Shown: positions 39,714-59,615 of the stretch, one piece after another
Layout: the number at the start of each line of letters is the position of its first letter
Numbering within the stretch: position 1 is the first letter of the stretch
Assembly: GCF_018069705.1 (NCBI RefSeq)
Contig: NZ_CP072943.1
Location: 1,043,260-1,107,259 of the forward strand
DNA length: 64,000 nt
Direction of reading: 5' to 3'
Origin: Aminithiophilus ramosus
GTDB lineage: Bacteria > Synergistota > Synergistia > Synergistales > Aminithiophilaceae
The notes under the pieces: model-generated
The model's input: the letters and a program-made list of their open reading frames with translations, nothing else
What the model was told of the DNA's origin: nothing
The model's database searches: none
Position numbers and translations under genes: made by a program

Positions 39714-39752
39714 TTGAAACTTATTGAAAACGATTGTCAAGGTGCCCTTCCC

Positions 39753-40174
39753 TCAGCTCAGAGCCTCGTCCAGTACGTGTCTCAGCCGCTGGCAGTGCTC
39801 CCGCCTGAGTGGGTCGTCGATCCGGCCGTTGTCCGTCAAGTCGAAAACCGTCTCCAGATCGACCAGAACCGGCGTACTCGCGTCGAGGGCCTCCCGGAAC
39901 CGCCGGGCCTCCTCGACGTGCGGGTTCAGTTGCCCCCCGGCCCCCGATCGGCCGGGGGGGTCGTAGGGTTTCCGTAGATCAGCAAATAAAGCTCCCCGTT
40001 TGGAAGCCCAAGCGCGGCCTCAAGAGCCGCGAGATTCTTGGCGTCTGTCGGGGAATATTTCTCATTTTCCCAATCACAAACCGTTGTTCGGGTACACCCG
40101 ATTTTTTGAGCCAACTCACCTTGGGTCATGCCGATGTCGCGCCTCGCCTTTCTTATTACGTCTCCGCACCCCAT
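39753..40174 (-). CDS. Module A: XRE repressor with C-terminal domain in -1 frame
   Basis: Residues 1-82 carry an XRE HTH (MTQGELAQKIGCTRTTVCDWENEKYSPTDAKNLAALE) and the linker NPTTPPADRGPGGN, then a stop at 39926. The -1 frame continues QLNPHVEEARRFREALDAS and ends HVLDEALS at 39753. The junction is G_GGG_GGC. A related copy at 44815-45215 keeps the same frame relation. It is either programmed frameshifting or a one-base error in a G tract. It is divergent from the XRE gene at 40324. Confidence 0.7.
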
Positions 40175-40230
40175 CCCCTCACCTCCTTTTATTCTGGTCT
40201 ACTTGGATTTTATGGCCAACCCCCCACTAA

Positions 40231-40299
40231 AGTCAAGTCAACTTTTACAAGTAGGTTGCGTTGACTTTTCTTGACTATTCTTGTTCCGGAAAGTAGGGT
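40231..40299. promoter_or_regulatory. Module A operators and promoter
   Basis: TTGACT half-sites occur inverted at 40231 and 40236 (AGTCAA) and direct at 40261 and 40271. The last is also a -35 (TTGACT, 17 nt, TAGGGT at 40294-40299) for the rightward gene. AGTCAAC and GTTGACT form a dyad around 40251. Confidence 0.55.
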
Positions 40300-40323
40300 T
40301 TACTTGAAATGGGGGGAAGCGCC

Positions 40324-40779
40324 ATGATCACCGGCGAAGAAATCCGGCGGTTACGCAAGGAGAAGAAATGGACACAGCAGGACTTGGCCAATGAGGTCGG
40401 CGTTGCAAAAACCACCGTTCTGGACTGGGAGAAAAACCGATATTCCCCAGAGGGCAAGAACGTGAACAATTTGGCCCGCGCCCTCAACGTCTCCATCGCC
40501 TACCTCATGGGCGAGACCGACGAGCCCCGGCCCGTCTCCCCTGCCGCCGGGCCACCCCAAAAACCGGCCTCCGGAGACTTCAACCCGACCGGGCTTCAGG
40601 AGAAGCTGCTCGAATTTCTGGCCGCCGTTCACGACAGAGGCAAAACCTCACCTGATTTTCTGGATCTCATCCGCCAGGTGAATGCTCTGAGCGAAGACGA
40701 AAAGCAGCTCCTGCTCCTCTGGCGCTCCCTGTCCCCGGAAAAACAGGAAACGGCGCTGCGCCTGCTGAAGGCCCTGTGA
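40324..40779 (+). CDS. Module A: XRE-family repressor, rightward
   Basis: This 151-residue protein has an XRE HTH in residues about 5-62 (LRKEKKWTQQDLANEVGVAKTTVLDWEKNRYSPEG), a linker AYLMGETDEPRP shared with two other repressors in this region, and a C-terminal helical domain (LQEKLLEFLAAV, LSPEKQETALRLLKAL). It is probably a CI-like lysogeny repressor. The ATG at 40324 has GGGGGG upstream. The stop is 10 nt before R4. Confidence 0.85.
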   Translation: MITGEEIRRLRKEKKWTQQDLANEVGVAKTTVLDWEKNRYSPEGKNVNNLARALNVSIAYLMGETDEPRPVSPAAGPPQKPASGDFNPTGLQEKLLEFLAAVHDRGKTSPDFLDLIRQVNALSEDEKQLLLLWRSLSPEKQETALRLLKAL

Positions 40780-40788
40780 GCCTCAAGA

Positions 40789-40817
40789 TTCAAATCGCAC
40801 CGTTGCGGTGTGGAAAC
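40789..40817 (+). repeat. CRISPR-repeat-like element R4
   Basis: TTCAAATCGCACCGTTGC then GGTGTGGAAAC, differing from the consensus in the last third. It is followed at 9 nt by a promoter and leader RNA. Confidence 0.78.
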
Positions 40818-40825
40818 GCAATCCC

Positions 40826-40853
40826 TTGACATCTTTCCCGAGCCTTGTAGAAT
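40826..40853 (+). promoter_or_regulatory. Promoter downstream of R4
   Basis: TTGACA (40826-40831), 16 nt, TAGAAT (40848-40853). It drives the nested-hairpin leader and the two genes that follow. Confidence 0.7.
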
Positions 40854-40881
40854 TTGATCGTCCCATATCGTTCGTTTACGC

Positions 40882-40931
40882 CCCCAGAGGATGAAGGCAG
40901 CCCCTTCGGCAGTTTGGTTCTCTGGGGTTTT
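40882..40931 (+). ncRNA. Nested-hairpin leader RNA, copy 1
   Basis: The outer stem CCCCAGAGGA (40882-40891) pairs with TTCTCTGGGG (40918-40927). Inside it GAAGG (40893-40897) pairs with CCTTC (40903-40907) around the loop CAGCC. TTTT follows. Copy 2 at 42264-42314 has the same loop with compensating changes in both stems. It acts as an attenuator or terminator in the 5' leader. Confidence 0.7.
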
Positions 40932-40955
40932 CCCTTCACGAAAGGAGGAGACACC

Positions 40956-41162
40956 ATGAGCCCCAGCGATTTCCTCTTCGCGACACCGAGCTTCTTGCGC
41001 GGCATGGCTTCGGTGCTTGACATGGGCGATACCCTTTCCGTCTTCAACACCACGGACACTCTCAACGACGCCGATTCTCGGGCAACGGCTGCCGATTGGC
41101 AGGCTGTCGGCCAGGATATCCGTAAGGCCTTGAAGGAATACCAAGCAACGCATGCCCTCTAA
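40956..41162 (+). CDS. Small conserved protein (SDFLFATPSF type), 68 aa
   Basis: The sequence SDFLFATPSFLRGMASVLDMG with the later DWQAVGQDIRKALKEY matches a small uncharacterised protein type that I have seen next to DUF2335 genes in phages and plasmids. ATG 40956 has AAGGAGGAG upstream, directly after the leader RNA. It overlaps the DUF2335 gene by 11 nt, so the two are coupled. Confidence 0.7.
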   Translation: MSPSDFLFATPSFLRGMASVLDMGDTLSVFNTTDTLNDADSRATAADWQAVGQDIRKALKEYQATHAL

Positions 41163-41562
41163 CCGCTCCCGATCCCTTCTCCAGGCAAAAACCACTCGCA
41201 TCGTACGCACCGAGGCCTATGAAGGGCCTCTTCCGTCGCCCGAAATTCTCGCTCGCTACAATGAAGTATGCCCGGGAGCAGCGGAGAGAATCCTGGTCAT
41301 GGCGGAGAACCAAGCCCGACACCGGCAGGGACTGGAGGCGGAGGTTATCCGTTCGCGAACCAGAGACAGCCGGTGCGGAATTTTCTGTGGCCTTGCCATC
41401 GGCATCAGCAGCATCGTCTGTGGCACAGCTGCCGTGATCTGGGGCCATTCCTGGGCCGGGACCTTTATTGGCACCGGCGGAGTGGCGGGTCTTGTCGGTG
41501 TCTTCATCCACGGAACAAATTCCAGCCGCGCCGAGCGCGAAGCAAAAGCTTCCCAAAACTGA
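41152..41562 (+). CDS. DUF2335-family membrane protein
   Basis: This 136-residue protein has the DUF2335 opening YEGPLPSPEILARYNEVCPGAAERILVMAENQARHR and two membrane helices near the C-terminus (CGIFCGLAIGISSIVCGTAAVIWG and TFIGTGGVAGLVGVFIHG). The family is uncharacterised, with a cytoplasmic N-terminus expected. It forms a two-gene unit with the small gene upstream. Confidence 0.8.
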   Translation: MPSNRSRSLLQAKTTRIVRTEAYEGPLPSPEILARYNEVCPGAAERILVMAENQARHRQGLEAEVIRSRTRDSRCGIFCGLAIGISSIVCGTAAVIWGHSWAGTFIGTGGVAGLVGVFIHGTNSSRAEREAKASQN

Positions 41563-41586
41563 CATCACCGCTTCCACCCCGTCTCT

Positions 41587-41615
41587 TTCAACCCGCATCG
41601 TTTCCGTGTAGAACC
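41587..41615 (+). repeat. Degenerate CRISPR-repeat-like element R4b
   Basis: 22 of 29 positions match R4 (TTCAACCCGCATCGTTTCC...GTAGAACC). It is in the same orientation as the others and again lies at a gene boundary, providing the stop codon for a remnant minus-strand frame. Confidence 0.55.
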
Positions 41616-41668
41616 AGCCTGCGCACCAGCCCCGCCAGTTCCTCCCCCTCCGGTTTGCCCTTGCTCAT
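41588..41668 (-). pseudogene. Remnant of an XRE repressor C-terminus ending in R4b
   Basis: A 26-residue frame (PEGEELAGLVRRLVLHG) resembles the C-terminal end of the XRE protein at 42959-43351 (PEGAELVGLIRNLAE). Its TGA stop lies within R4b. It appears to be the stub of the leftward partner of the next repressor. Confidence 0.5.
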
Positions 41669-41695
41669 CTCGCCACCAAACGGTAGCATTCCCCT

Positions 41696-42148
41696 ATGAG
41701 CAAACAAACGGTCTTCTCTATGCGGTTGAAAGAATTGAGGGAGTTGCGAGGATTTGAACGGCCAGAACTGGCCTCAATTGCCGGTTTCTCTGCTGAAACT
41801 ATTGCGAGATACGAGCGCGGAGAGCGAGAACCCAAGGCAAGCGATATTCAGGCTCTCGCCCGCATCCTCAACACCACTGCAGCCTACCTCATGGGCGAGA
41901 CCGACGACCCCCGGCCGAGAACCCGCGAAGAGAGCTTCGAGATCCAGGCCCCCGTCGAGACGGACATGATCGTCGCAAAGCGATCCCCGATCCAGGCGGC
42001 TCCCGATGAGATCGAGCTCGTAGTCCGCCGAGGCGGACATCGCTACGCCACGACCATCCCCCTCGAGAGCGCCACGGAAGAGACGGTCCGCATCGCCATG
42101 AACTACCTGCGGAGCCTGGCGGAGCGAGACGGCCCCGACGGAGTATGA
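41696..42148 (+). CDS. XRE-family repressor between R4b and R5
   Basis: This 150-residue protein has an HTH (residues about 6-62, LRELRGFERPELASIAGFSAETIARYERGEREPKASD), linker AYLMGETDDPRP and a C-terminal domain FEIQAPVETDMIVAKRSPIQAAPDE then LVVRRGGHRYATTIP. It is intact, while its near-duplicate at 44294-44730 is frameshifted. The stop is 2 nt before R5. No full leftward partner remains. Confidence 0.85.
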   Translation: MSKQTVFSMRLKELRELRGFERPELASIAGFSAETIARYERGEREPKASDIQALARILNTTAAYLMGETDDPRPRTREESFEIQAPVETDMIVAKRSPIQAAPDEIELVVRRGGHRYATTIPLESATEETVRIAMNYLRSLAERDGPDGV

Positions 42149-42149
42149 C

Positions 42150-42178
42150 TTCAACTCGCACCGCCGAGGGATTGAAAC
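42150..42178 (+). repeat. CRISPR-repeat-like element R5
   Basis: 29 nt, TTCAACTCGCACCGCCGAG then GGATTGAAAC. It is identical to R7, and R5 with R7 form a subtype. The duplicated block 41883-42178 ends at its last base. Confidence 0.8.
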
Positions 42179-42189
42179 TATTAAAAATA

Positions 42190-42217
42190 TTGACAGGCAA
42201 TCGTTTTGTGGTACCCT
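42190..42217 (+). promoter_or_regulatory. Promoter downstream of R5
   Basis: TTGACA (42190-42195), 16 nt and a weak TACCCT -10 lie before the second leader RNA. This mirrors the arrangement after R4. Confidence 0.5.
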
Positions 42218-42263
42218 GGATATGCGCACGCGGGCAGGTGTTGGCGTGCGAGATTGGTTTAAT

Positions 42264-42317
42264 CCCCCCGAGGATGGAGGCAGCCCCTCCGGCATCTAGT
42301 CCTTGGGGGGTTTTGTT
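42264..42317 (+). ncRNA. Nested-hairpin leader RNA, copy 2
   Basis: The outer stem CCCCCCGAGGA (42264-42274) pairs with TCCTTGGGGGG (42300-42310). The inner stem GGAGG/CCTCC (42276-42280 with 42286-42290) holds the same CAGCC loop as copy 1. TTTTGTTT follows. Stem bases differ from copy 1 but pairing is kept. Confidence 0.7.
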
Positions 42318-42331
42318 TGGGAGGGATCCGC

Positions 42332-42922
42332 GTGCAGGAGCCGCAGACCAAACGCCTTCACGTCTTCTTCGATTGCCAGAACCTCTTTCATGCCTGCCGA
42401 AAAGCCTGGGACTACGATTGCCCCAACTTCGATCCGCTCAAACTTTCCCGATTCCTCTCCAAAATGCATCCCGATTGGACACTGAAGAAGGTTCACGTTT
42501 ACACGGGCATTCATGATTCGAAGGTCAATCCCAGACTTCACTCGTTTTGGACCAACAAGTTGGCGCTCCTGAACCAATCCCCCCAAGTAGAGATCATCAC
42601 CCGTCCCCTGAGATACACTTCATGCGATGGAATAAAAGTGGCTCGCGAAAAAGGCATTGATGTGCGTATCGCCTTGGACCTCGTTCGCCTGGCTCGTACC
42701 AATGAGTTCGACGTGGCGGCCCTCTTCAGCCAGGACAACGATTTCCGCGAAGTCTCCGACGAAATCCGCGCCATAGCCAGGGAGTTCGACCGCTGGATCA
42801 AGATCGCCTCCGCATTCCCCGGTGTTCCGAATGCGAAAGGGATCGACCGCACGGACTGGATCCCCGTCCCGAAGGAAGACTACGACCGCTGCATCGATCC
42901 GAACGACTACTCCGCGCCATAA
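42332..42922 (+). CDS. NYN/PIN-domain putative RNase
   Basis: This 196-residue protein has the NYN acidic pattern: FFDCQNLFHACR (Asp near residue 14), KGIDVRIALDLVRLA and FSQDNDF. This resembles LabA-type nucleases acting on RNA with a metal ion. GTG 42332 has GGGAGG 6 nt upstream, straight after the leader RNA. A PIN-like nuclease under an attenuator in an immunity region suggests an accessory or exclusion function. Confidence 0.85.
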   Translation: MQEPQTKRLHVFFDCQNLFHACRKAWDYDCPNFDPLKLSRFLSKMHPDWTLKKVHVYTGIHDSKVNPRLHSFWTNKLALLNQSPQVEIITRPLRYTSCDGIKVAREKGIDVRIALDLVRLARTNEFDVAALFSQDNDFREVSDEIRAIAREFDRWIKIASAFPGVPNAKGIDRTDWIPVPKEDYDRCIDPNDYSAP

Positions 42923-42958
42923 ACCGCCATTTCGGTTTTCAAGGTCCGCCTTCCCTGT

Positions 42959-43351
42959 CTACTCCGCCAAATTCCTGATCAGCCCAACCAGCTCCGCGCC
43001 CTCCGGCGTGTCGGGGCTCCCGTCCTGGAGGTCCAGTGCCGCCGTCACCACCCGGTGCGGTTCGGACATGAACCGGCACAGCTTCGGGATCGCCTCCACA
43101 TTCACGCCATGCTTCCGAGACGTGATATCATCGTCTTCGCCATCGTCTTCCCGCAGTTGCCGCTGCGGTTGAAACAAGTCCCGAACGTTGCCGTTCAACA
43201 GCTCAGCGATGGAGATGGCCGTCTCCACGTTGGGTTTCGTTGTGCCCGCCTCGATGTTCTGGTAGTTGCGGACACTGATTCCGATTGCCTGTGCCACCTG
43301 CTCCTGTGTCATCCGGCACGAGTTGCGCGCTTGTACGAGTTCTTTTCTCAT
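42959..43351 (-). CDS. Module B: XRE-family repressor, leftward
   Basis: This 130-residue protein has an HTH (ARNSCRMTQEQVAQAIGISVRNYQNIEAGTTKPN, about residues 8-42), an acidic linker (REDDGEDDD) and a C-terminal domain whose last part (160 nt of DNA) is duplicated perfectly at 43669-43828. It is divergent from 43445, with two operators between. Confidence 0.85.
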   Translation of the reverse strand: MRKELVQARNSCRMTQEQVAQAIGISVRNYQNIEAGTTKPNVETAISIAELLNGNVRDLFQPQRQLREDDGEDDDITSRKHGVNVEAIPKLCRFMSEPHRVVTAALDLQDGSPDTPEGAELVGLIRNLAE

Positions 43352-43374
43352 GGATCACCATCCTCTTGTTGTGG

Positions 43375-43425
43375 CACGCATTATTTAGCGTGTCAAGGGG
43401 ACTCTATCACGTATTATTTAGCGTG
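43375..43425. promoter_or_regulatory. Module B operators O1 and O2
   Basis: CACGCATTATTTAGCGTG (43375-43392) and CACGTATTATTTAGCGTG (43408-43425) are imperfect palindromes 33 bp apart, about three helix turns. On the minus strand each overlaps a TTGACA -35 box for the leftward gene. Confidence 0.75.
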
Positions 43426-43444
43426 TCAAGTGAGGTGCATCTGA

Positions 43445-43654
43445 ATGTTCTCTGAGCGCCTGAAGTCTCTTCGTAAGGCTCGTGGTGTTACTCAAAAAGC
43501 CCTTGCCGCCTCCTTGGGGCTCTCTGAACGCCACTACCAGGGCATTGAGTACGGAGAAACAAAGCCTGGATTCGACAACCTCATCGCCCTCGCGGACTAC
43601 TTCGACGTGTCCCTCGACTACCTGGTTGGGCGATCGGACAACCCCGGGCGATAG
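43445..43654 (+). CDS. Module B: small XRE (Cro-like) regulator, rightward
   Basis: This 69-residue HTH-only protein (LRKARGVTQKALAASLGLSERHYQGIEYGETKPGFDN) with tail DYLVGRSDNPGR looks Cro-like. It is divergent from the module B repressor across two palindromic operators. Confidence 0.82.
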   Translation: MFSERLKSLRKARGVTQKALAASLGLSERHYQGIEYGETKPGFDNLIALADYFDVSLDYLVGRSDNPGR

Positions 43655-43668
43655 CCCTGCCAGATCCT

Positions 43669-43828
43669 TCCGCCTTCCCTGTCTACTCCGCCAAATTCCT
43701 GATCAGCCCAACCAGCTCCGCGCCCTCCGGCGTGTCGGGGCTCCCGTCCTGGAGGTCCAGTGCCGCCGTCACCACCCGGTGCGGTTCGGACATGAACCGG
43801 CACAGCTTCGGGATCGCCTCCACATTCA
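43669..43828 (-). pseudogene. 160-bp duplicate of the module B repressor 3' end
   Basis: This block is identical base for base to 42945-43104. The identity ends within the first four bases of R6, and the remainder of the repressor gene is absent. It is a fragment joined to the repeat. Confidence 0.85.
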
Positions 43829-43853
43829 AATCGCACCGTTGCGGGATTGAAAC
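43825..43853 (+). repeat. CRISPR-repeat-like element R6
   Basis: Consensus copy (TTCAAATCGCACCGTTGC then GGGATTGAAAC). Its left edge is the breakpoint of the 160-bp duplication. On the minus strand it provides the end QSRNGAI and stop of the module C repressor. Confidence 0.85.
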
Positions 43854-44122
43854 TCCGTCTCGACCGTCTCCTTGCCCCCCGGCCCCCGATCGGCCGGGGG
43901 GGGCGTAGGGTTTCCGTCGACAAAAATCATCTTGTAGAGTGCACCTGCCGTAAGCCCCAGCGCCCCTTCCAGACGAGCGAGGTTCTGCCCGTCGGTGGGA
44001 GCATATTTCTCGGATTCCCAGTCATAAATTGCCGACCTGGAGACTCCGACTTTTTCAGCCAACGCAACTTGACTAAGTCCTGTCGCTTGCCTGGCTTCCC
44101 GAATTACTGCTCCGAATCCCAT
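43826..44122 (-). CDS. Module C: XRE-family repressor, leftward, ending inside R6
   Basis: This 98-residue protein has an HTH (ARQATGLSQVALAEKVGVSRSAIYDWESEKYAPTDGQN) and the linker NPTPPPADRGPGG shared with module A. The module A C-terminal domain is replaced by a short tail that reads into R6 and stops there. ATG 44122 has AAGGAGGTG upstream. Confidence 0.78.
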   Translation of the reverse strand: MGFGAVIREARQATGLSQVALAEKVGVSRSAIYDWESEKYAPTDGQNLARLEGALGLTAGALYKMIFVDGNPTPPPADRGPGGKETVETEFQSRNGAI

Positions 44123-44147
44123 TGGAACACCTCCTTGCATAGCAAAC

Positions 44148-44233
44148 TAGTCAATACACTCAGCATGGTAGGATTATTTCCGCGGATTGTCAAGCACACT
44201 AAGCGGAATTGCATAGTTGACTAATGTTGACTA
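44148..44233. promoter_or_regulatory. Module C operators
   Basis: TTGACTA occurs at 44217-44223 (in TAGTTGACTA) and 44227-44233, with the inverse TAGTCAA at 44148-44154. The words are related to, but arranged differently from, those of module A. Confidence 0.5.
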
Positions 44234-44293
44234 TTGCCAAGTGAGACGTAGACTTTACTTGACACGAATGCTGAGGCGGGGGGTAAAAGGCGA

Positions 44294-44730
44294 GTGATTT
44301 CTGGTGGCGAGATAAAAGCTCTTAGAAAAAGTCGAGGGTTGTCACAGCAAGAACTCGCCGACGCGACAGGGGTCTCCAGGTCTGCGGTTTATCTTTGGGA
44401 ATCGGGGACCCACCCGCCGGTGGGGAAAAATCTCCAAGCCCTCGCCCGCGCCCTCAACGTCTCGACCGCCTACCTCATGGGCGAGACCGACGAGCCCCGG
44501 CCGAGAAACCGCGAAGAGAGCTTCGAGATCCAGGCCCCGTCGAGACGGACATGATCGTCGCAAAGCGATCCCCGATCCAGGCGGCTCCCGATGAGATCGA
44601 GCTCGTAGTCCGCCGAGGCGGACATCGCTACGCCACGACCATCCCTCGAGAGCGCCACGGAAGAGACGGTCCGCATCGCCATGAACTACCTGGGAGCCTG
44701 GCGGAGCGAGACGGCCCCGACGGAGTATGA
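44294..44730 (+). pseudogene. Module C: XRE repressor, rightward, frameshifted
   Basis: The GTG start at 44294 gives an HTH (LRKSRGLSQQELADATGVSRSAVYLWESGTHPP). After the linker, 44469-44760 duplicates 41883-42178 with four one-base losses, mostly in C runs, breaking the C-terminal domain after IQAPSRRT. The stop of the original frame would be 2 nt before R7, as at R5. Confidence 0.75.
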
Positions 44731-44731
44731 C

Positions 44732-44760
44732 TTCAACTCGCACCGCCGAGGGATTGAAAC
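44732..44760 (+). repeat. CRISPR-repeat-like element R7
   Basis: Identical to R5 over 29 nt. The sequences diverge immediately after the last C (T at R5, C at R7). Confidence 0.8.
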
Positions 44761-44814
44761 CTCTTCCCTTGTGGTTTGCCTTTCGATTGTCAAGGTGCCC
44801 TTCCCTCAGCTCCC

Positions 44815-45215
44815 TCAGCTCAGAGCCTCGTCCAGTACGTTTCTCAGCCTCTGGCAGTGCTCCCGCCTTGCCGGGTCGTCCGATGCGGCCGTTGTTGGCC
44901 AGGTCGAAAACGGTGTCGAGTGCCGCGAGAATCGGCCCGCTTTCGTCGAGGGCTTCCCGGAACCGCCGGGCCTCCTCGACGTGCGGATTGTTCAGTTGCC
45001 CCCGGCCCCCGATCGGCGGGGGGTCGTAGGGTTTCCGTCAAGAATCTCCTCTACAGAAACGGACAGGATTTCCGCGAGTCTTTTAACGTCGGACGCTCTG
45101 GGCTCCCGAAGCCCTGCCTCATACCTGGCGATGGTCCGAGAGGAAAGACACTCAGTCTAGCCAATTCTCCCTGGCTTAATTCGGCTGCTTCTCTAAACGC
45201 TCTGAGTCGCTCCAT
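44815..45215 (-). pseudogene. Module D: XRE repressor, leftward, frameshifted
   Basis: ATG 45215 begins MERLRAFREAAELSQGELARL. The rest of the HTH (SRTIARYEAGLREPRASDVKRLAEIL) is in another frame. The linker GNPTTP, the G tract and the C-terminal domain (QLNNPHVEEARRFREALDES) match module A, with a further shift near GRIG. At least two indels separate it from an intact gene. Confidence 0.7.
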
Positions 45216-57642: not shown

Positions 57643-57883
57643 CTATGGTGGACCCCATTTATGGTGGACCCCATTGTCAAGACCATTTGAGGCCCGAAGT
57701 TAGTTAAAGTCAGACCGCCATCGGTCCCTCCCGGTCGGCAAAGTGAACCTCCCGCGGTGTCCTGTAGTTCAGTGAGGAGTGAAGCCTTTCGTCGTTGTAG
57801 AAGTCCATATACTCCCGCAGGCCGCAGCGGAGATCGCGGACCCGCTCGTAGTCGTTCAAGTAGAGCCACTCATACTTGAGGGT
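57643..57883 (-). mobile_element. Two nested IS3 end fragments
   Basis: A 17-bp IS3 end (57643-57659) abuts a 224-bp IS3 end fragment (57660-57883, orfB C-terminus). That fragment abuts the full element at 57884. All share the start TATGGTGGACCCC. Confidence 0.8.
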
Positions 57884-57933
57884 TATGGTGGACCCCATTG
57901 TCAAGACCATTTGAGGCCCGAAGTTAGTTAAAG

Positions 57934-58800
57934 TCAGACCGCCATCGGTCCCTCCCGGTCGGCAAAGTGAACCTCCCGCGGTGTCCTGTAGTTCAGTGAG
58001 GAGTGAAGCCTTTCGTCGTTGTAGAAGTCCATATACTCCCGCAGGCCGCAGCGGAGATCGCGGACCCGCTCATAGTCGTTCAAGTAGAGCCACTCATACT
58101 TGAGGGTCCGCCAGAAGCGTTCCACGAAGATGTTGTCGAGGGCCCTGCCACGACCGTCCATGCTGATCCGGATCTCCTTTTCCTTGAGCAGAGACAGAAA
58201 GGCCTTACTGGTGAACTGACAGCCCTGGTCGGTGTTGAAGATCTCCGGCGTTCCCTGCCGAAGAGCCCTGTCGAGGGCGACGACGCAGAACTCTGCGTCC
58301 AGGGTGTTGGAAAGTTCCCAGGAGAGGACGAAGCGGCTGTGCCAATCGATGACGGCCGCGAGGTACATGAAACCGCCACTCATCGGGAGGTAGGTGACAT
58401 CGGTGCTCCAGACCTGATTCGGTCTGACGATGACGGCGTTCCGGAGCAGGTAGGGATAAATCTCATGTTCGGGGTGAGGCTTGCTGGTTCCCGGTTTGGG
58501 GCCAATCCCTTCGAGCCCCATAAGCCTCATCAGCCGTCCGATCCGTTTGCGGTTCACGTCCTGTCCCTGTCGACGCAGCCAGGCCGTCATCCGGCGGCTC
58601 CCGTAAGAGGGGGCGCAGGTGTACCGGCCGTCGATGAGCTCCATGATTTCAAGGTTCTCCGCCGTCTCCGTCGCGGAAGAGCTCGCGTAGTAGAAGCTGG
58701 ACCGGTTAAGATCAAGGAGGTCACATTGCCGACGAACACTGATCGAAGGGTGCTCGGGATCGATGGAGGTCCGCTTTCCCTCAAGCGTCAGCGCCTGATT
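57934..58800 (-). CDS. IS3 orfB transposase, copy 2
   Basis: Same product as in copy 1, with the DDE residues in DVTYLPMSGG, NTDQGCQFTS and DNIFVERFWR. It is reached by -1 slippage on A9 (58799-58807, minus strand). Confidence 0.9.
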   Translation of the reverse strand, partial: NQALTLEGKRTSIDPEHPSISVRRQCDLLDLNRSSFYYASSSATETAENLEIMELIDGRYTCAPSYGSRRMTAWLRRQGQDVNRKRIGRLMRLMGLEGIGPKPGTSKPHPEHEIYPYLLRNAVIVRPNQVWSTDVTYLPMSGGFMYLAAVIDWHSRFVLSWELSNTLDAEFCVVALDRALRQGTPEIFNTDQGCQFTSKAFLSLLKEKEIRISMDGRGRALDNIFVERFWRTLKYEWLYLNDYERVRDLRCGLREYMDFYNDERLHSSLNYRTPREVHFADREGPMAV

Positions 58801-59065: not shown

Positions 59066-59412
59066 GATGTCCCCTCTCTTTCTGGGACCCTATGATACAG
59101 CCCGACTTCAACTGCAACTTAGCTCGTGGTCCAGTTTTCGGGGTCCACTATACTCTGGGGCCACCTGAGACCGCTATTGCGTCATGGCCACAATGGAACG
59201 GCACCACCCGCGTTCTTGTCCACAATCCGCGCAGCACCTTGCACGAAAGAAAACTTCAATGACGTGATCCTGTGGAGATAAAGTTTCCCAAAAAGAGGGG
59301 CAACGTCCTCCTTCCAGGAGGGGAACAAAGGGTTCAGGTTGACGCCTGTCGAGGATTGCCTTATCCTGGCCCGGGAAGTAAGGGTCGGATCCTTTGAGGA
59401 ATCCGACGATCC

Positions 59413-59547
59413 TATGGTGAGGGTGTTTTCGGGAAGCCGGTGAAAATCCGGCACAGACCCGCTACGGTAAGGGTGACGAGGCATGCATGAGGCCACCGAT
59501 AACGTCGGGAAGGCGCATGCCGAGGATGACCCCAAGTCCGGATACCG
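59413..59547 (+). ncRNA. Cobalamin riboswitch
   Basis: The conserved core is present in order: GGGAAGCCGGTGAAAATCCG, CAGACCCGCTACGGTAA, GCCACCG (B12 box), GGGAAGGCG, GGATGACCCCAAGTCCGGA and TACC. An intrinsic terminator 70 nt downstream completes the expression platform. It controls the uptake genes at 59997 onward. Confidence 0.93.
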
Positions 59548-59615
59548 AACCCCCTCACGGCAGCATCCTCCCTCGTGGGCCGGGGAGGGGCGTCTCTTTC
59601 TGATCGAGTATGTTC

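Follow-up and report, generated by a model that had tools for sequence, protein, structure and literature searches.

Short RNAs placed ahead of toxin or nuclease genes are known from several bacterial systems. In type III toxin-antitoxin systems (ToxIN, CptIN and TenpIN), the gene for an endoribonuclease is preceded by an RNA that shares its promoter and is set off from it by a terminator (PMC5086642). A similar order is seen in AbiF/RCd22 (the abiF motif, RF03085), a Clostridioides difficile phage system in which a promoter and a short structured RNA are followed by a terminator, so that the toxin is made by read-through, again in a prophage/mobile setting (PMC12373285). The HMP-PP (thiS) riboswitch carries a conserved element within a terminator stem near the transcription start (PMC6478431). 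The locus described here resembles each of these arrangements in part, with a predicted terminator.

Autoregulated leaders of RNase genes exist in E. coli (rnc, rne and pnp), and what they have in common with this locus is that an RNase gene begins with a structured 5' leader which its own product may act on. Bacterial ribonucleases of the NYN/LabA type are common and poorly understood. One CRISPR-associated NYN that has been studied biochemically is a sequence-nonspecific, Mn-dependent single-stranded RNA nuclease (PMC11346440).

Two nested hairpins in the Aminithiophilus ramosus window

The window is a stretch of 64,000 nucleotides of the Aminithiophilus ramosus genome. The first-pass annotation had placed in it two nested hairpins behind TTGACA promoters, one ahead of a DUF2335 unit and the other ahead of an NYN nuclease gene, and both are confirmed at their sites (Table 1). 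The core motif is found just two times in the window (0 expected) and two times in the 3.1 Mb genome, and the folding z-scores of the copies are -2.3 and -2.5. A simple terminator scan calls neither hairpin, its loop limit of 3-8 excluding nested stems. The additional hairpin that copy 2 carries in its 5' leader was not seen by eye in the other leader members. Searches with the leader and with the NYN and DUF2335 genes found no match in a second genome assigned to the species (G151), and all three are therefore accessory.

Table 1. Features of the two leader loci (window coordinates)
Feature	Coordinates	Strand	Evidence
Copy 1 promoter, TTGACA-16-TAGAAT	40826..40853	+	Consensus scan 11/12; TTGACA 40826-40831, TAGAAT 40848-40853
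Copy 1 nested-hairpin leader RNA + T run	40882..40931	+	Sequence, fold; model R3 (copy 1 left out of training) 20.2 bits
Copy 1 outer arms	40882-40891 / 40918-40927
Copy 1 inner stem (loop CAGCC)	40893-40897 / 40903-40907
Copy 1 TTTT	40928-40931
68-aa ORF, first gene of DUF2335 unit	40956..41162	+	ORF, AAAGGAGGAG preceding start; homologue adjoins DUF2335 in other genomes
DUF2335 membrane protein	41152..41562	+	Pfam PF10097, 3e-16
Copy 2 promoter, TTGACA-16-TACCCT	42190..42217	+	Sequence; TTGACA 42190-42195, TACCCT 42212-42217
Extra 7-bp hairpin CGCACGC/GCGTGCG, copy 2 5' leader	42223..42248	+	Sequence + RNA fold
Copy 2 nested-hairpin leader RNA + T run	42264..42314	+	Sequence, fold; model R3 (copy 2 left out of training) 29.6 bits
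Copy 2 outer arms	42264-42274 / 42300-42310
Copy 2 inner stem (loop CAGCC)	42276-42280 / 42286-42290
Copy 2 TTTT	42311-42314
NYN-domain (LabA/DUF88-type) ribonuclease gene, leader's usual partner	42332..42922	+	Pfam PF01936 2.3e-12; PADLOC HEC-09 4.5e-9

The annotation had also placed the two leaders downstream of repeats (its R4 and R5), which are CRISPR-like. A link to these repeats was not borne out. The repeat matches upstream of the window leaders reach 26/29 and 25/29 positions, against at most 16/29 at 21 other leader loci, and a CRISPR-repeat-linked element was rejected because strong matches lie upstream of the window copies only. The CRISPR-like repeats are part of the HTH-gene cluster around the leaders rather than of the leader RNA. 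The host array of the same repeat accounts for nearly all of the 275 pattern matches in the genome (from position 2,805,217 on).

Between 38347 and 44770 there are seven solitary, partly degenerate host CRISPR repeats (TTCAAATCGCACCGTTGCGGGATTGAAAC) with 0.4-2.2 kb spacing, several of which directly abut Cro/CI-type HTH genes of either orientation at their 3' end; they are possibly RNA anti-CRISPR-like solitary repeats or cassette boundaries. A degenerate repeat-like sequence (41578-41625) terminates the DUF2335 cassette, and the homology of a related cassette in another genome (L125, see below) starts at GCAATCCCTTGACA and stops there too, as if the cassette had moved as a unit. The region 39749-45043 holds duplicated HTH-gene segments (e.g. 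42945-43104 and 43669-43828, 100% identical; 41950-42070 and 44535-44655, 97%), forming a recombining regulator cluster whose neighbours, at 36-38 kb, are replication genes of the DnaC-like and HTH kinds. Elsewhere in the window there are a cobalamin riboswitch (59407-59567, 89.8 bits) and two identical, adjacent 224-bp copies (57659-58106).

A selected RNA structure tied to NYN genes

The leader is a selected RNA structure, near the promoter and tied to NYN genes. The first-pass annotation had seen strong evidence of selection on structure in the window copies alone. Between them both partners differ in 2 of 15 pairs, a number also reached in 136 of 500 shuffles, so this pair of copies is by itself not strong evidence of structural selection. 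The structure is nonetheless real, and the evidence becomes strong once relatives are added. The annotation proposed a covariance-model search seeded with the two copies and held that a lack of further structured homologues upstream of accessory genes would refute it; such homologues were found (L125, L126 and the NYN loci). The model built from both window copies (R1) gave two strong relatives over 183 Synergistales genomes, L125 and L126, both in Synergistaceae. Its matches L127 and L128 (E about 0.06) were judged to be chance.

In an alignment of 11 sequences, fitted to the structure by a second model (R2) and to that extent favouring covariation, 15 of 19 pairs changed on both sides (35 cells), a result equalled in 0 of 500 shuffles. 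Here 89% of cells pair (vs 74% in shuffles), and sliding the 3' partners by 1-3 columns removes the signal. When arms, picked by hand, are exchanged between 22 sequences, pairing falls from 0.93 to 0.76 in the outer stem and from 0.985 to 0.49 in the inner stem, and 0 of 20,000 permutations are as good; in the proteobacterial subset alone (described below) the test is weak (p about 0.03 and 0.13). A third model (R3), trained with both window copies excluded and the close relative L126 included, recovers both, with E values of 4e-6 for copy 2 and 2.5e-3 for copy 1. Across the 183 genomes, some of whose assemblies are incomplete, R3 gives 13 full-length matches of at least 41 bits, against at most 32 bits for short ordinary terminators. 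Weak R2/R3 matches of 26-48 nt were set aside as ordinary terminators. All genome-wide covariance scans used Infernal with strict filters.

The tie to NYN genes is consistent. All seven further intact NYN homologues in the 183 genomes (L262-L268; an NYN fragment at a contig end, L269, is left out of this count) have a nested hairpin between the promoter (TTGACA/TATAAT) and the NYN start. These proteins show about 50-58% identity and belong to other Synergistales families. Their hairpins occupy the same site with widely differing stem sequences, most having TTATTTTTT downstream of the hairpin and UUAUUUUUU after the stem. Where upstream sequence was available, no intact NYN of the leader-associated family was seen without a leader.

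The predicted protein belongs to the NYN family. The Pfam profile PF01936 scores 48 bits (cut-off 24.2) and is the only family found by Pfam, and PADLOC matches the protein to HEC-09, a candidate defence model. The AlphaFold model (pLDDT 87.6) has its best PDB structural match in 2qip (VPA0982; E 7e-9), followed by MARF1 NYN domains; a PDB search by sequence gave none. D14, N17, D110, D116, D135 and D137 are invariant among the homologues, and these acidic/polar residues suggest that the predicted RNase is an active enzyme.

In Synergistales the leader promoters are near consensus, and the one-sided bulge is usually GCA-N-N. The distance from the -10 box to the start of the outer stem is 13 nt in the f5 family and 14-17 nt in most proteobacterial-type members; it is longer (28-47 nt) in window-type leaders, g9 copies and L266, with 33-47 nt in the g9 strain group and window copy 2. 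In the NYN leaders of Synergistales 8-9 of the first 9 tail positions are U, and poor terminator tails are seen in L270 and L278 (4 U of 9) and in copy 1 (TTTTCCCTT). Folding z-scores of the leaders are mostly -3 to -6. The CAGCC loop, called invariant in the first-pass annotation, is indeed present in both window copies and is confined to the window subtype.

The leader is also found before other genes. L125 has the same DUF2335 cassette, promoter and leader as the window (its DUF2335 protein is 92% identical), and in L126 the leader precedes a DUF2281-like ORF and a ParE-type toxin; TTGACA-16-TACAAT takes the position equivalent to the copy 1 promoter in both. One leader type thus heads three unrelated units. 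No NYN was found in the genome of L125 or L126 (incomplete assemblies), six relatives of the DUF2335 unit (L247-L252) have no leader hairpin, and for relatives of the ParE-type toxin in 26 genomes no full-length leader was found among the scanned loci. Because all seven NYN homologues have the hairpin, while the DUF2335-unit relatives and the scanned ParE-type relatives lack a (full-length) one, the leader's partner was most likely NYN at first, and the other two contexts would be secondary captures. The earlier proposal of an attenuator serving the DUF2335 unit and NYN alike remains plausible as to the attenuator, but an equal role for DUF2335 is not supported.

Leaders can also outlast their NYN gene. 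In L304 (G026) and L313 (G019), from sister genomes of G039, identity to L262 is 92-97% over the flanks and the leader, and the NYN-bearing segment is absent, the break falling immediately before the NYN start codon; the segment is present or absent right after the leader as if cargo had been swapped behind a fixed promoter-leader. L288 keeps promoter and hairpin with the NYN gone, L306 has a truncated NYN, and L289 is decayed.

Further NYN homologues, ten from viral contigs (L271-L280) and one from a replicon of Methylobacterium bullatum (L270), also have a hairpin. L271 has one of the Synergistales type. Most of the other leaders are of a proteobacterial type and have CATCAACTT in common; their outer stem resembles CCCCGYCGGA/TCCGGCGGGG, the inner stem is GCC/GGC, and TTAT comes next. 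Several of them are matched by R2 and R3 with E values of about 1e-4 to 5e-3, which suggests, short of proof, that the two leader types are homologous. Two distant, actinobacterial-type NYN genes (L281 and L282) have a CCCCrCC...GGyGGGG hairpin and T run just upstream, as read by eye. Judged from these sequences, the leader-NYN association is present in bacteria of at least two phyla. Also by eye, three of the viral contigs (L273, L275 and L278) have NYN and hairpin among terminase- and portal-like ORFs, possibly a gene-transfer-agent-type cluster.

Broader searches returned little. The NYN protein gave one good match in plasmids (Methylobacterium bullatum), none in phages and two distant ones in 94 genomes of other phyla; copy 1 as a nucleotide query found none in plasmids and phages. 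In viral contigs an exact 16-mer gave nothing beyond chance matches. The motif, scanned across about 85,000 genome species, gave 109 stretches with a strong model fit only in two Synergistaceae ones, a type of scan that misses diverged members and sets no bound on distribution.

Proposed mechanism and its rivals

We hold with moderate confidence that the leader is a promoter-proximal conserved RNA of the NYN ribonuclease gene family that acts by premature transcription termination, with the NYN protein as its likeliest reader. Transcription would begin at a good sigma-70 promoter, and in most members the RNA would fold within about ten nt of the start into an outer stem, an inner stem and a one-sided bulge. 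The outer stem and U run would then halt most polymerases, leaving a short RNA of roughly 55-100 nt, and occasional read-through would supply a small amount of NYN RNase. Given that bulge and position are conserved, the hairpin is probably recognised by some reader, most likely the NYN protein itself, which would provide feedback control. In Aminithiophilus ramosus the promoter-leader would also drive the DUF2335 unit. We infer the termination, the short RNA and the NYN recognition from sequence patterns; no antiterminator conformation was found in the leader. The poor tails of L270, L278 and copy 1 speak against this mechanism, as do the terminator scan that calls neither window hairpin and the late stem starts of the g9 group and window copy 2. 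A further counterpoint is that the leader persists without NYN (L288, L304 and L313) and before other genes. NYN is then not needed for the leader's retention, unless such copies are young remnants.

The main rival, possible though on the unlikely side, is an RNA antitoxin. The short hairpin RNA, in excess, would bind the NYN RNase in trans and neutralise it, the RNase being a toxin or abortive-infection effector, and the terminator would set the RNA:protein ratio. This fits an AbiF-like order (sigma-A promoter, about 100-nt structured RNA, terminator and read-through into a toxin; PMC12373285), the match to HEC-09, and the asymmetry expected of antitoxin and toxin, in which leaders without NYN exist and no intact NYN without leader was seen. 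However, toxicity of NYN is a supposition, the single hairpin has no tandem repeats, and copies stand before the DUF2335 unit and the ParE-type pair, with no NYN found in the (incomplete) genomes of L125 and L126. The nonspecific nuclease activity of the CRISPR-associated NYN (PMC11346440) is neutral here. A bolder form of the same idea, which we regard as doubtful, is that a single-hairpin RNA would terminate its own transcript and also neutralise NYN, making a new type III-like toxin-antitoxin/abortive-infection class in several phyla whose promoter-RNA part is recruitable to other cargo. Feedback control and neutralisation by RNA are inseparable at the level of sequence.

It is rather improbable that the hairpin is a fixed terminator, i.e. 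an expression damper with no reader. The strong stem with its U run, the unrelated payloads behind the leaders and the varying loop sequences between groups would all suit a damper, but a plain terminator needs no conserved inner stem, bulge or promoter-relative position, and ordinary terminators of the same genomes are shorter and score far lower. A terminator-embedded aptamer for a small molecule or general host factor is more improbable still, the thiS motif (PMC6478431) being its precedent for a conserved element within a terminator stem: there is no Rfam match, loop sequences are unconserved across groups, and the downstream genes (an RNase, a toxin-type pair and a DUF2335 unit) are not metabolic. 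Chance similarity or a coding leader peptide, with the window copies as one recent duplication lacking RNA-level function, is scarcely credible: only two double changes separate the copies and both have an ATG within the hairpin, but this is ACG in L126 (on which ground a leader peptide was rejected), the inner-stem changes would change codons (K/E, S/P), and the homologues, by covariation and phyletic spread, refute it.

Comparison with known systems

The leader RNA is apparently undescribed so far. In Rfam 15, which includes the abiF RNA (RF03085), no family reached its gathering score with the window leader or with 8 homologous loci, more permissive searches found no match at the hairpins, and in open-access papers no description of NYN with an upstream RNA was found. 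A covarying RNA at the start of NYN transcripts, kept in distant bacteria, gives a handle on NYN control and a possible RNA target of these enzymes. The leader-NYN pair is a testable case of an RNA-regulated RNase module in mobile/prophage regions.

With type III systems the locus has in common that an RNA gene precedes an endoribonuclease gene and shares its promoter (promoter and RNase activity both predicted). As to a terminator between them, most members have a hairpin with a U run, which is weak in L270 and L278. Type III antitoxins typically have repeated units and pseudoknots, whereas here (in a folding that allows no pseudoknots) a single hairpin would double as terminator, and the leaders examined have one hairpin per locus and no repeats. 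Nor is the protein a ToxN, CptN or TenpN toxin, as Pfam gives NYN only and the fold matches NYN. Because repeated units and a type III toxin family are both lacking, we do not class leader-NYN as type III.

The other systems differ in their own ways. Control of rnc, rne and pnp works through mRNA decay and not through a promoter-adjacent terminator, and we claim no homology with them. The HMP-PP (thiS) riboswitch belongs to other genes in other phyla, and the leader is without an Rfam match. AbiF is an Abi_2-family protein, not NYN, and RCd22 consists of two motif copies and a separate terminator.
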